This document shows, one piece after another, positions 9,391-59,928 of a stretch of DNA of 64,000 nt; within the stretch, counting starts at the first letter, position 1; the number at the start of each line of letters is the position of its first letter. This DNA is from Maribacter thermophilus (lineage in GTDB: Bacteria; Bacteroidota; Bacteroidia; Flavobacteriales; Flavobacteriaceae): positions 3,496,520-3,560,519 of the forward strand of contig NZ_LDAS01000001.1 of assembly GCF_001020565.1 (NCBI RefSeq), given 5' to 3'. The position numbers were made by a program, and so were the translations under genes. The notes under the pieces were generated by a model. It had not been told where the DNA came from. It did not search any database and was given only the letters and a program-made list of their open reading frames with translations.

Positions 9391-9463
<73 letters not shown>

Positions 9464-52694: not shown

Positions 52695-52717
52695 CAGTGT
52701 ATTTAAAGATTGTAGTA

Positions 52718-55210
52718 ATGAAGAAAACATATCATATACACGGAATGAGCTGTAACGGCTGTAGGACGCATGTGGAGCAGACTTTGTCCAATATTGAAGG
52801 AGTGAAGGGTGTTTCGGTAGATTTAGAAAAGGCCGAGGCAGTTTTGGAGATGGATGAGCGGTTGTCTTTGGGTGATTTGCAAGAAGCGATGAAAGCGGAT
52901 GGCGGACATTATTCCATTCATAAATTGGGTGAACATAAACATGAAGTTATCAAACCTAAAAAAGCGGAAAATGGCAACGGCACTTTTTATTGCCCCATGC
53001 ACTGCGAAGGTGATAAGACGTATACAGAGCCCGGAGACTGTCCGGTTTGCGGTATGGATCTGGTGGAAGAGGTAGGTTCGGTGGTCGGTGGCCCCCAAGA
53101 ATATACATGCCCCATGCATCCTGAGGTTGTAAGCGAAGAACCTGGTGATTGTCCTATTTGTGGTATGGATTTGGTGGCTAAACAGGCCGATGTATCCGCA
53201 GAGGAGAAAAGCTATAGAAGGTTATTGGGCAAGTTTAAGATAGCCGTTGCTTTTACCTTGCCAATTTTCATTATTGCAATGTCCGAGATGATACCTGGTA
53301 AGCCACTTCAAGGTATTTTAAGCTTAAAGCATTGGAACTGGGTGCAGTTCGTATTGTCTGTTCCTGTCATATTTTATGCTACTTGGATGTTCTTTGAGAG
53401 GGCTTACCGTTCTGTAAAAACATGGAATTTGAACATGTTTACCTTGATCGGTATTGGGGCGGGAGTTGCATGGTTGTTCAGTGTATTCGCTATTTTGGTT
53501 CCCGATTTTTTTCCTTCTCAATTTAAAACCGATCAGGGGACGGTACATGTGTATTTTGAGGCCGCTACCGTGATTCTTACGTTGGTGCTTTTTGGGCAGT
53601 TGCTGGAGGCCCGTGCCCATAGTAAAACAAATACTGCCGTAAAAGAGCTATTAAAACTAGCGCCTAACAGGGCTGTGCGGATTATAGACGGTAGAGAAGA
53701 GACCATTGCGATCGATAAAATTTCGAAAGGGGATTTACTTCGTGTAAAACCTGGAGATAAAATTCCGGTAGATGGGGTTATTGAGGAAGGTGAAAGTACG
53801 GTGGACGAATCTATGATTACCGGGGAGCCTGTTCCGGTTTATAAAGTAGTTGGTGACCATGTGAGTTCGGGAACCATAAACGGAAAACGTTCGTTTGTAA
53901 TGAAAGCCGAAAAAGTAGGTGCCGAGACTTTATTGTCCCAGATTGTGGATATGGTAAACAAGGCCAATAGAAGTCAGGCTCCTATTCAAAAATTGGCAGA
54001 TAAGATTTCTGGCTATTTTGTGCCTGCTGTGGTTTTTATAGCGATAGTTACGTTCATTGTTTGGGTTGTTTTTGGGCCAGAACCGGCTTATGTGTACGCC
54101 TTGGTGAACGCTATTGCCGTGTTGATCATTGCATGCCCGTGTGCTTTAGGTCTGGCAACTCCAATGTCGGTAATGGTCGGTGTAGGTAAAGGGGCGCAAT
54201 CGGGGGTCTTGGTCAAAAATGCCGAAGCTCTAGAACGTATGGATAAGATAAACACCTTGGTTGTAGACAAAACGGGCACCATAACCGAAGGTAGGCCGTC
54301 TGTGGAAATGGTTGGGAATGTGGGCGATGTTGATTCGAAAAAGGTGTTGCAGTACATTGTTTCTTTGAACCAGTATAGTGAACATCCCTTGGCCGACGCT
54401 ACGGTGAAATATGGCAAAGAGAAGAACGTGGCCTTTATAAAGGTAGACGATTTTGATTCTGTGACCGGTATGGGGGTTAAGGGGTATATCAATGGAAATT
54501 CTGTTGCGCTTGGTAACGAAAACATGATGTCTCGGATGAAAGCCACAGTACCGGATACGTTAAGATCAGAAGTTGTTTCCTATCAAAAACAAGGAAAAAC
54601 AGTATCCTATTTGGCAATTGGTGAAATGGCGGTAGGTTATGTGGTTATAGTTGACAAGATCAAGGATACCAGTAAAAAGGCAATAGCGGACCTTCAGAAA
54701 TATGGCATATCGGTGATAATGCTGACAGGTGATAATTATGATACGGCCAAGGCAGTGGCCGAGCAACTGAACCTATCCAGTTTTAAGGCAGAAATGCTTC
54801 CTCAAGACAAGTTAGAAGTGGTAGGGCGTTTACAAGAGGAAGGTAAAAAGGTAGCTGTTGCCGGCGACGGAATTAACGATGCCCCTGCATTGGCCAAAAG
54901 CGATGTGGGCATTGCTATGGGTACTGGTACCGATGTGGCCATCGAAAGTGCGGCTATTACTTTGGTAAAGGGTGATTTGCATGGTATTGTAAAGGCATAC
55001 CGCCTAAGCAATGCCGTTATGAAAAATATTAAGCAGAATTTGTTCTTTGCCTTGATCTATAATACGGTCGGTATTCCGGTTGCGGCAGGAGTGCTGTTTC
55101 CCTTTTTTGGGTTGTTGTTATCGCCGATGATAGCAGCATTGGCCATGAGTTTTAGTTCGGTTTCCGTGATAGCAAATGCATTACGGTTACGGGCTGCAAA
55201 AATTGATTAA
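52718..55210 (+). CDS. copA: copper-exporting P1B-type ATPase
   Basis: An 830-residue membrane ATPase. The ATG at 52718 starts directly at the HMA domain; an upstream GTG at 52697 falls between the -7 box and this ATG. Order: N-terminal HMA (CNGC at 12-15), two YHS-like heavy-metal-binding segments (FYCPMH...CPVCGMDL at about 89-117 and YTCPMHPE...CPICGMDL at about 130-157), eight membrane helices, the intramembrane CPC site (473-475), phosphorylation site DKTGT (D517) and [11 protein letters not shown] with these domains indicates export of Cu(I) from the cytoplasm. It leads an operon with a TonB receptor and a periplasmic HMA protein. Confidence 0.93.
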
Positions 55211-55231
55211 TAAAATTGAAGAAATAAATAG

Positions 55232-57469
55232 ATGAATAAATATATAGTATTACTAATAGTGACGGCGCTGCCTTGGTTTGCTTCTTCCCAGGAAAAAGTA
55301 GAAGGGGTGGTTTTGGATTCTGAAGGAGGTAACGCCTTACCGCTGTCCGGCGCAAATGTGTATTGGCAAGATTCCCAGACGGGCGTGGTGACCGATTTTG
55401 ATGGTAAATTTTCTATACCGTATTTAAAGGAATTCAATAAGCTGATAATTAGTTATGTTGGTTTTGAGCCCGACACGCTTGTTGTAAATGGCCCTAAGAA
55501 GTTACGCATTAGTCTAAGACCGTCAAATGAGTTGGAGGAGGTAGTGGTACAGCAAGAACGGGACGCTATCCAGAAAACATATTTTAGTCCGCAGAACGTA
55601 GTCTCTGTGAATAGTGATGAATTGCTGAAGGCGGCCTGCTGTAATCTGGCAGAAAGTTTTGAGACCAATCCGGCGATAGATGTAAATATGTCCGATGGGT
55701 TAACCGGTACCAAGCAAATACAAATGTTAGGGTTGACCAGTCCGTACCTATTAATAACCCAAGAGAATATTCCTATGGTGCGGGGTGCTTCCCAAGCCTA
55801 TGGCTTAACTTTTACCCCGGGTACTTGGATAGAGAGCATTCAGATCAGCAAAGGTGCGGGTAGTGTGGTGAACGGGTACGAAAGTATATCCGGACAAATA
55901 AACACTGAACTTGTAAAACCGTTGACGGATAAGGCTGTTTTTGTAAATGGATATGCAAATCAAAATGGACGTTATGAGCTAAATGTACATTTGAACAAGA
56001 AGCTTACCGAAAAGTGGAGTACCGGACTATATGTTCATGGCAACAAAAGAACCCAAAAAGAGGATGGTAATAATGATGGGTTTTTAGATGCTCCGTTGGC
56101 AGATCAGATCAATGTCATGAATCGTTGGCAGTATCAAGATCCCGAAAAGGGCTGGGTAAGTTTCTTCAATGTACGCTTTTTAAATGACGAGAAGCAGGTA
56201 GGGCAGGTAAATTTTAACCCCGATACCGATAAGTTTACGACCAATGCATGGGGCAGTGAAATAAATACCCGCCGTTTTGATACATCGGTAAAGTTAGGAT
56301 ATGTTTTTCCTGAACTTCCGTTTCAAAGCGTCGGATTTCAGACTTCTTATAGTTTGCATAAGCAAGATTCGTACTTCGGTTTTAGAACGTACGATATTGA
56401 TCATGAGAGCCTGTACAGTAACCTTATTTTTAATTCTATCATTGGTGATACCAGAAATAAGTTTAAGACGGGTATTACATTTGCCTATGATGGTTATGAT
56501 GAAAGGGTAACGGCGACGGACTATTCTAGGGAAGATGCTTCTGTTGGCGCTTTTTTTGAGTATAGTTATGAAAACCTTGAAAAGGTAAGTTTAACGGCAG
56601 GTCTTCGTGTGGATAACCATAATAGGTTAGGGACTTTCGTTACGCCAAGGTTTCATATTAGATATACCCCTTGGGAAAGAGGGAGTTTGCGAGGTTCTTT
56701 CGGAAGAGGTAAAAGAGCAGCCAATATTTTTGCGGAGAACCAACAGTTGTTTGCGTCGGCAAGGGTAATTAATATCGCCGATACCGGTGGTAGTGTATAC
56801 GGTTTGGAGCCTGAGGATGCATGGAACTACGGAGTGAGCTTTTTACAGGGGTTTACCTTTCTGAACAAAAAAGGGGATATTTCGTTGGATTATTATATTA
56901 CAGATTTCAGAAATCAGGTAGTGGTAGATTGGGAGAACCCGCTAGAAGTCTCTTTTTATAATCTAGAAGGGGATAGTAGTGCCAAGAGTTTTCAAGTAGA
57001 ACTCAACTATGAACTTTTGGCTCGTTTACATCTCAGGACTGCCTACAAGTTTTACGATGTCACGACCGATTACAAAAGCGGAAACTTGCAAAAGCCGTTA
57101 TTGGCGCAACATCGATTTTTTGTTAACTTAGGGTATGAAACCAAGGCCAAGGATAACGGGGCACAGTGGAAATTTGATTATACCTTGCACAGTATGGGTA
57201 AAAAGAGATTGCCGAATACCAGCTCTAACCCTGTGCAATACCAATTAGGAGAATATTCATCGCCTTACAATCACATGAATGCCCAGATAACAAAGGTGTT
57301 TTCTGAGAAGTTTGAAATATATATAGGAGGGGAAAACCTTAGTGAAGTACAACAAAATACCCCTGTTATAGGTGCGGATAACCCTTTTGGCCCTAATTTT
57401 GATACAGCAATCGTGTATGCGCCAATAATGGGAAGAATGTTTTATGGTGGGTTCAGAATTAAAATTTAA
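55232..57469 (+). CDS. TonB-dependent outer-membrane receptor (copper locus)
   Basis: A 745-residue receptor: signal peptide (1-19), carboxypeptidase-like regulatory domain (about 22-100, VEGVVLDSEGG...FDGKFSIPY), plug (about 120-225, with CCNLAESFETNPAIDVN and IQMLGLTSPYLLI) and a 22-strand-type barrel to the C-terminus (ending GGFRIKI). The CCN pair in the plug region is a candidate metal ligand. There is no SusD partner. Its place between copA and an HMA protein argues for transport of copper or a copper complex across the outer membrane; direction is not known. Confidence 0.88.
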   Translation: MNKYIVLLIVTALPWFASSQEKVEGVVLDSEGGNALPLSGANVYWQDSQTGVVTDFDGKFSIPYLKEFNKLIISYVGFEPDTLVVNGPKKLRISLRPSNELEEVVVQQERDAIQKTYFSPQNVVSVNSDELLKAACCNLAESFETNPAIDVNMSDGLTGTKQIQMLGLTSPYLLITQENIPMVRGASQAYGLTFTPGTWIESIQISKGAGSVVNGYESISGQINTELVKPLTDKAVFVNGYANQNGRYELNVHLNKKLTEKWSTGLYVHGNKRTQKEDGNNDGFLDAPLADQINVMNRWQYQDPEKGWVSFFNVRFLNDEKQVGQVNFNPDTDKFTTNAWGSEINTRRFDTSVKLGYVFPELPFQSVGFQTSYSLHKQDSYFGFRTYDIDHESLYSNLIFNSIIGDTRNKFKTGITFAYDGYDERVTATDYSREDASVGAFFEYSYENLEKVSLTAGLRVDNHNRLGTFVTPRFHIRYTPWERGSLRGSFGRGKRAANIFAENQQLFASARVINIADTGGSVYGLEPEDAWNYGVSFLQGFTFLNKKGDISLDYYITDFRNQVVVDWENPLEVSFYNLEGDSSAKSFQVELNYELLARLHLRTAYKFYDVTTDYKSGNLQKPLLAQHRFFVNLGYETKAKDNGAQWKFDYTLHSMGKKRLPNTSSNPVQYQLGEYSSPYNHMNAQITKVFSEKFEIYIGGENLSEVQQNTPVIGADNPFGPNFDTAIVYAPIMGRMFYGGFRIKI

Positions 57470-57493
57470 CAAACAATAAATAATACAATAACT

Positions 57494-57856
57494 ATGAAAA
57501 CTACGATTTTATCTATTGCGATGGTGTTTATTGCGGTATTGACATATGCTCAGGATAAGAATAAAAAACTGACATTTGATGTAAACGGCAAGTGTGCCAT
57601 GTGTAAAGAGAGGATAGAAAAAGCTGCCTTGAACGTAAAGGGGGTAAAATATGCCAATTGGGATATTCCTAGCCATCAATTGTCCGTAATTATGGACGAA
57701 CGCAAGACCGATGCCATGAAGATCAAAACGGCAATTGTTGCCGTTGGCCACGACACTAAAGAATTAAAGGCTACGGAAGAAGCGTATAACAGTGTTCATC
57801 CTTGCTGTAGGTACAGAGAGGATAATTCCGATGATGGCGCGACGCATAAGATGTAG
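57494..57856 (+). CDS. periplasmic HMA-domain metal-binding protein
   Basis: A 120-residue exported protein: signal peptide (1-19, ending YAQ), an HMA ferredoxin-like fold with the metal site CAMC (34-37) and a C-terminal HPCCRYRED tail offering additional Cys/His ligands. It is probably a periplasmic copper chaperone or sponge that works with CopA and the TonB receptor, whose stop is 24 bases upstream. Confidence 0.85.
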   Translation: MKTTILSIAMVFIAVLTYAQDKNKKLTFDVNGKCAMCKERIEKAALNVKGVKYANWDIPSHQLSVIMDERKTDAMKIKTAIVAVGHDTKELKATEEAYNSVHPCCRYREDNSDDGATHKM

Positions 57857-57977
57857 TCTGTGAGTTGGTTAGGGTTTTTACGGGCGCTCAAAAATTTTAG
57901 TTAATTTTTTGCCAATATAATTATCACGGATCAAAATCTGAAATACATTAGCGTAGATTTATTTTAATTCGATATCA

Positions 57978-58076
57978 ATGGCACAAGCAAAATCAGCAGG
58001 GAAACCAGCTGCGAAGCCCGCTCCGGCAAAAGCTGGAAAAAAGGCTGCTCCAAAAGCTGCTCCTAGAAAGAAGTAG
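57978..58076 (+). CDS. 32-residue Lys/Ala/Pro-rich peptide, histone H1 tail-like
   Basis: ATG at 57978 to TAG at 58076 encodes 32 residues: MAQAKSAGKP, then repeated PA/AK units (PAAKPAPAKAGKKAAPKAAP), ending RKK. Ten of 32 residues are Lys or Arg and none is acidic, like the C-terminal tails of histone H1 or bacterial H1-like DNA-binding proteins. It is a separate gene, with about 120 bases of upstream DNA and its own terminator 43 bases after the stop. The third codon positions vary for Ala and Lys, as expected for a translated frame. A nucleoid- or RNA-binding role is inference. Confidence 0.6.
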   Translation: MAQAKSAGKPAAKPAPAKAGKKAAPKAAPRKK

Positions 58077-58118
58077 TAGCATAGATCTATAAGATAGATC
58101 CGGCGTTTTTGGACAATG

Positions 58119-58154
58119 AAACCATCTTCTGTAAATAAAGAAGGTGGTTTTTTT
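58119..58154 (+). terminator. Rho-independent terminator of the Lys/Ala/Pro-rich gene
   Basis: A 12-bp stem (58119-58130 with 58139-58150, one G-U pair), an 8-base loop and a run of seven T residues, located just past the micro-gene. Confidence 0.75.
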
Positions 58155-58172
58155 GTTGATGTACGAACATAA

Positions 58173-58207
58173 AAAACCGCTCTTGATATTTTTCCAAGAG
58201 CGGTTTT
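58173..58207. terminator. bidirectional terminator downstream of groEL
   Basis: A 13-bp perfect stem (58173-58185 with 58195-58207), a 9-base loop, A-run and T-run at both ends. It closes the leftward groES-groEL operon and backs up the preceding rightward terminator. Confidence 0.85.

Positions 58208-58257: not shown

Positions 58258-59928
<1,671 letters not shown>

Follow-up and report, generated by a model that had tools for sequence, protein, structure and literature searches.

Among the described bacterial proteins closest to the product considered here, the chlamydial-type H1-like proteins Hc1 and Hc2 are lysine- and alanine-rich and far longer than 32 residues, and very small basic ribosomal proteins such as bTHX resemble it in size and charge. 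Two further proteins carry basic tails with an ascribed role, each taken here from an excerpt of the source: the KPAA tail of the H1-like protein AlgP from Pseudomonas aeruginosa works in polyphosphate-granule association (PMC9239181), and the PAKK/KAAK tail of mycobacterial HupB works in DNA association (PMC5676037). The micro-gene analyzed in the present study encodes a lysine-, alanine- and proline-rich peptide of 32 residues in the intergenic gap between an HMA-domain gene (stop at 57856) and the end of groEL (58258). Coordinates refer to the window, the whole 64-kb stretch of DNA that was analyzed, and the features of the region are as follows.

57494-57856, + strand: HMA-domain gene (Pfam HMA), with a Cys-containing end
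57895-57915, + strand: upstream box, consensus about TTTTRGTTAATNTTTTNCCAA (alignment of 20 members), a possible activator or upstream-element site by inferred role
57944-57951, + strand: predicted -7 promoter box TACATTAG, TAnnTTTG with one mismatch
57978-58076, + strand: micro-gene, ATG 57978 to TAG 58076, 32 residues MAQAKSAGKPAAKPAPAKAGKKAAPKAAPRKK and the stop TAG
58084-58100, + strand: small hairpin GATCTAT-AAG-ATAGATC after the stop, from per-member folds
58118-58155, + strand: Rho-independent terminator of the micro-gene, 13-pair stem (hairpin 58118-58151) and T run
58173-58207, - strand: separate terminator of the convergent groEL, belonging to this neighbor and outside the micro-gene
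58258-59889, - strand: groEL (Pfam Cpn60_TCP1), convergent

Copper-type genes, including the one for the HMA-domain protein, occupy positions 52697-57856 of the window; among their products are what we take to be a heavy-metal P-type ATPase and a TonB-dependent receptor.

The peptide consists of twelve Ala, nine Lys, five Pro, two Gly and one each of Arg, Gln, Ser and Met; 26 of the 32 residues are thus Ala, Lys or Pro, Cys and His are absent, and the charge is +10. An earlier note on this DNA had described a basic peptide without acidic residues in a gap of about 400 bases between the copper locus and groEL, and both statements agree with our values (no Asp or Glu, calculated pI 11.5, gap of 401 bases). 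By length alone the frame is unremarkable and no more than chance would give, since an ATG frame of at least 32 residues, on either strand, is present in 1193 of 2000 dinucleotide shuffles of the 401-base gap. Unlike the length, the composition is beyond chance expectation; no frame of at least 25 residues with at least 70% Lys, Ala, Pro or Arg arose in 2000 shuffles of the gap, and the micro-gene is the sole such frame in the 64-kb window. That the micro-gene is a chance open frame, as the many shuffles with a frame as long would allow, is hardly credible given this composition and the conservation and substitution pattern in 38 members.

These 38 loci constitute the full member set. The start codon is ATG in all of them, and the stop lies at a common position in 37, the exception being L024 (G016), where it is lost at 1597-1599 (TAT) and six residues are added until the next stop. 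Ten positions are invariant over the 38 members, each of which has 8-11 basic residues and none an acidic residue, while the extensions of the frame upstream of the ATG vary between members in length and sequence. In 30 members with 29 distinct sequences, a count leaving out L029, L067 and six loci from the genus g2 (presumably Zobellia), dN/dS is 0.139, and the two other forward frames are interrupted by stops and have the opposite substitution pattern. On the groEL tree, changes at codon positions 1, 2 and 3 number 19, 13 and 72 with 28 tips, and 28, 24 and 98 by parsimony with 35 tips, L016, L026 and L029 having no groEL in the locus; the third-position excess (98/150) corresponds to p ~1e-15, which is only a guide because the members are related. 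Both length changes, of four residues in L029 and one residue in L067, are in frame. An antisense frame (58082-57993) was rejected: it is free of stops and gives a weaker echo of the substitution pattern (pS 0.238, pN 0.064) because the two frames have their third codon positions at the same bases, and by eye its start triplet is present in few alignment rows. Judged from the comparison, the 32-residue frame is a real gene kept by purifying selection, with start and frame maintained as in a conserved small protein-coding gene, and its coding status is close to certain. The micro-gene for a 32-residue peptide proposed in the earlier note is thereby borne out, and the condition that the note named against it, a lack of conserved frame or start in related genomes, turned out in favor of the gene.

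Selection on the lysines appears to go beyond charge. Leaving position 30 aside, the nine lysine codons show 17 third-position and two second-position changes on the groEL tree, the latter both in L028 (Lys to Met and Lys to Ile). Replacement of Lys by Arg, which likewise needs only one base change, is seen in none of the 38 members outside position 30; position 30 itself has Arg in 21 members, Lys in 16 and Thr in one. A purely charge-based tail would not need this absence of arginine, which therefore suggests a role more specific than charge alone, and the retention of lysine argues for a partner or a modification that needs lysine, or else for codon or composition constraints, which our counts do not set apart from it. 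The observation bears on the main rival to the polyanion-binding view developed below, namely that the peptide serves the ribosome or another specific complex as a small accessory protein, with one partner instead of a general coating of nucleic acid. Basic proteins of 25-45 residues are typical of ribosome-associated factors, and the sequence of the peptide, not just its composition, is conserved (the ten invariant positions; Lys and not Arg outside position 30). Against this, no chain sequence in the PDB matched the peptide at E up to 10, whether searched with the single sequence or with a profile, and with occurrence in four of the 237 genera of the family sample it would have to be a lineage-specific addition. 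We consider a specific partner of this kind unlikely, though worth keeping in mind.

The region upstream of the ATG carries promoter-like signals in all members. A TANNTTNG box ends 23-29 bases ahead of the ATG in 38 of 38 loci and occurs in only three of 114 control windows further upstream; it has the form TANNTTAG in 35 members and TACATTCG in three, always with one mismatch to TAnnTTTG, the flavobacterial primary-sigma consensus at -12 to -5 according to an excerpt of PMC9723704. From this box the transcript start is predicted near 57956, and no -33 element was recognized by eye in the alignment of 20 members. The upstream box, centered ~50 bases 5' of the predicted transcript start, is present in a simplified form in 36 of 38 members and altered in L006 and L028. 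Adenines at -3 and -6, which favor initiation in Flavobacterium johnsoniae (PMC6847099, in excerpt), are found in 17 and 28 of the 38 members, respectively, and the micro-gene of the window has T at -3, so that the context for initiation is moderate.

The 19-base core of the upstream box has one exact occurrence in the genome that contains the window, and two further sites, C1:1217375 (L076) and C1:1551444 (L077), each match it with two mismatches. One of the two overlaps a gene end ~90 bases before another frame and the other lies inside a long frame; we take the former frames to be glycosyltransferase-like followed by OmpA-like, and the latter to be synthetase-like. The idea of a regulatory box shared elsewhere in the genome was set aside.

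Downstream of the stop, the small hairpin has stem letters that vary between species with pairing mostly kept and several pair types per stem position. With the best stem chosen for each member, a procedure that favors pairing, 36 of 38 members have such a stem (L029 and L073 gave none, and the best one in L006 is a different stem), and in 24 of the 38 it beats 95% of 200 mononucleotide shuffles. The terminator folds in 38 of 38 members with -12.1 to -20.2 kcal/mol; nine terminator-like sites occur in the 4.5-kb region scanned, compared with a mean of 4.1 in shuffles. Its hairpin starts 41 bases after the stop, and not 43 as the earlier note had it. The accompanying claim that the terminator supports an independent transcript stands in part: terminator and promoter-like region are both conserved, but the terminator outlasts the gene in two genomes (L031 and L040), which means that it can also serve the upstream copper operon and weakens the argument.

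Together with the terminator, the 3' hairpin with its changing stem letters would fit a functional RNA, in this case a small regulatory RNA ~200 bases long that contains two hairpins and acts with or without the peptide, and so would the highly conserved 5' region. An RNA-only role does not, however, predict changes structured by codon (dN/dS 0.14; 98 of 150 at third positions), and most of the conserved 5' block precedes the predicted start of transcription. Rfam at gathering score finds nothing in the micro-gene region, its only match in the window being a tRNA at 9391-9463. Relaxed searches returned 25 matches, of which the best have E 0.0097 and 0.02 and those listed are all below the gathering score; the first, a trpB motif spanning the two terminators, reaches 32.3 bits relative to a gathering score of 59, and these matches were discarded. 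An RNA as the functional product is decidedly improbable.

A groEL was found in the locus (~1.5 kb either side) for 35 of 38 members, and 32 loci were tested for the HMA gene, with a match in 24. Among the eight loci without an HMA match, L013 is cut short and L007-L011, L025 and L026 give no match; other genes lie upstream in the five read for frames (L007, L008, L011, L025 and L026). In L016 and L029 the HMA gene is kept and groEL was not found, and in L026 neither was found. As regards INDEPENDENCE from neighbors, the micro-gene, the -7 box and the terminator are all present in the loci where a neighbor was not found. Because the signals persist without the copper operon or groEL next to them, the micro-gene is, by this comparison, an independent unit. 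The frequent proximity of groEL and of the HMA gene could also mean that the peptide is a component of the copper operon or takes part in regulating groEL. We regard this as very improbable, since the micro-gene retains its own signals where one neighbor or, in L026, both were not found, Cys and His residues that might bind metal are missing from the window's peptide, and groEL, encoded on the other strand, is ended by a terminator of its own.

Two observations concern groEL itself. In L025 (G009, ~1046-1248) it was matched in three pieces in different frames, perhaps owing to a sequencing error. In the groEL tree, three g2 genomes (L072-L074, set against L014 and L015) lie inside Maribacter with high support, and their micro-gene and terminator look g2-like; groEL may have been exchanged between Maribacter and g2.

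Matches at E up to 10 were obtained in 30 of 100 genomes searched (the window's own and relatives): 27 of 36 Maribacter genomes (M. sedimenticola, M. stanieri and M. litoralis are among those searched), two from other genera, and G059. The match in G059 (L030, E 0.39) is ~69 kb away from groEL in that genome and was dropped before counting members. Pseudozobellia thermophila (G046) carries the micro-gene, as do nine of nine genomes searched in the second genus, g2, and one of twelve in genus g57, the last in a 31-residue form; in the other eleven g57 genomes, some of them incomplete, there was no match and no similar frame downstream of groEL. A sample of 397 genomes from the family gave eight matches in four of 237 genera. 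Samples of 395 genomes each from the order and the phylum added no further member, giving four matches, all to previously found members, and three matches, two known and one by chance, respectively. This chance match (G883, L093, E 0.0018) falls within a long frame, presumably of a histidine kinase, but in a different reading frame, and was dropped. The micro-gene is thus restricted, in the samples searched, to a few related genera, bearing in mind that divergent members can escape searches with a query this short and simple.

Within this range the gene has also been lost, and six presence changes are required on the tree. Nine Maribacter genomes gave no match, and groEL was found in seven of them. 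Two of the seven are G018 (L040) and G023 (L031); the groEL tree places G023 as sister to the window's genome. Both keep the HMA gene and the terminator, and by eye the frame and promoter-like region are gone; the small hairpin is retained in L031 and not evident in L040, likewise by eye. G005, G011 and G032 have different sequence downstream of groEL without such a frame, G031 ends 49 bases past the groEL match, and the two genomes outside these seven, G007 and G024, have no groEL match. In G008 (L039), a transposase/integrase-like stretch adjoins groEL by eye. In L028 (G036, 1501-1599), two lysines are lost, several other residues are replaced and the upstream box is altered; this copy is probably decaying, and L069, a close relative, carries an intact one. 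The losses in at least two Maribacter genomes indicate that the micro-gene is not essential and is dispensable in some species, and those in the close relatives G018 and G023 provide ready natural comparisons. In L052 (G038), a Cys/Lys-rich repetitive protein, possibly metal-binding, ends by eye at the position of the Maribacter micro-gene.

Our results are consistent with a one-gene transcription unit that would be expressed from a primary-sigma-type promoter (box 57944-57951), perhaps with the help of an activator at 57895-57915, to give an mRNA of ~200 bases with a 22-base leader, ended by the terminator and translated without a Shine-Dalgarno site. The product would be a free-standing, probably disordered, lysine-rich and acid-free polycation (+10) whose most likely ligand is a cellular polyanion, in the first place nucleoid DNA or ribosomal or other RNA and next polyphosphate; such binding is proposed by likeness to the lysine-alanine-proline tails of H1-like bacterial proteins. 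Of this proposal, expression, disorder in the cell and polyanion binding are what we infer, and coding capacity, purifying selection, conserved signals and neighbor independence are what the comparison of loci shows. We consider it probable that this is a genuine one-gene unit encoding a disordered polycation that binds a cellular polyanion. A variant in which the peptide acts on the phase separation of polyphosphate or RNA, as driver or as modulator, draws on the ability of polycationic peptides to form condensates with polyphosphate and on the location of AlgP on polyphosphate granules (PMC9239181, in excerpt); with 32 residues the peptide is short for such a role, which we find quite unlikely. 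More tentatively, the polyanion-binding peptide could be pictured as a lysine-selected, free-standing "linker-histone tail", the product of an orphan gene originating in one marine Flavobacteriaceae lineage, that acts as a factor of the nucleoid, of ribonucleoprotein or of condensates and can be tuned through modification of its lysines; this picture is possible, if rather doubtful. Small orphan genes are often dismissed, and selection on the micro-gene is demonstrable from sequence alone.

Database searches place the product outside described families. Neither Pfam (E up to 1) nor NCBIfam (E up to 10) contains a family matching the peptide, a 32-residue low-complexity query having little power in family-model searches, and the gene is therefore probably unnamed in annotation. 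A single PHROGs match (E 8.5) is meaningless and was set aside, and among the matches listed from the open-licence PMC literature there was nothing on the micro-gene. AlphaFold2 on the single 32-residue sequence gave no secondary structure with pTM 0.14 and mean pLDDT 76.7, a result that says little, this pLDDT not being the low value that would itself indicate disorder. By the libraries searched, the micro-gene thus represents a new small-protein family.

Compared with H1-like proteins of the Hc1 and AlgP type, the peptide has the Lys/Ala/Pro-rich, acid-free composition and lacks both a match to a curated family model and an N-terminal domain followed by a long tail. The "histone H1 tail-like" label of the earlier note accordingly holds for composition and fails for family: on this evidence the product is H1-tail-like in composition only and is no member of the H1 families tested. 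Unlike Hc1 and Hc2, it has no Pfam or NCBIfam match, and it differs from proteins of the bTHX type in having no matching PDB chain and in occurring in few genera of the samples searched. With AlgP, as described in an excerpt of PMC9239181, it shares a very basic Lys/Pro/Ala tail predicted to be disordered; AlgP, however, consists of a helical N-terminal domain (124 residues) and a C-terminal domain (195 residues), whereas 32 residues leave no room for a separate domain and contain no regular KPAA repeat. The C-terminal domain of HupB (PAKK/KAAK) is likewise Lys/Ala/Pro-rich and basic, like eukaryotic H1/H5 (PMC5676037, in excerpt), but HupB has an HU domain and the peptide, without a Pfam match, has none. 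By this comparison the micro-gene encodes an H1-tail-like peptide standing alone, and it offers a minimal case in which to ask how a bare lysine-rich tail functions when no folded domain accompanies it.
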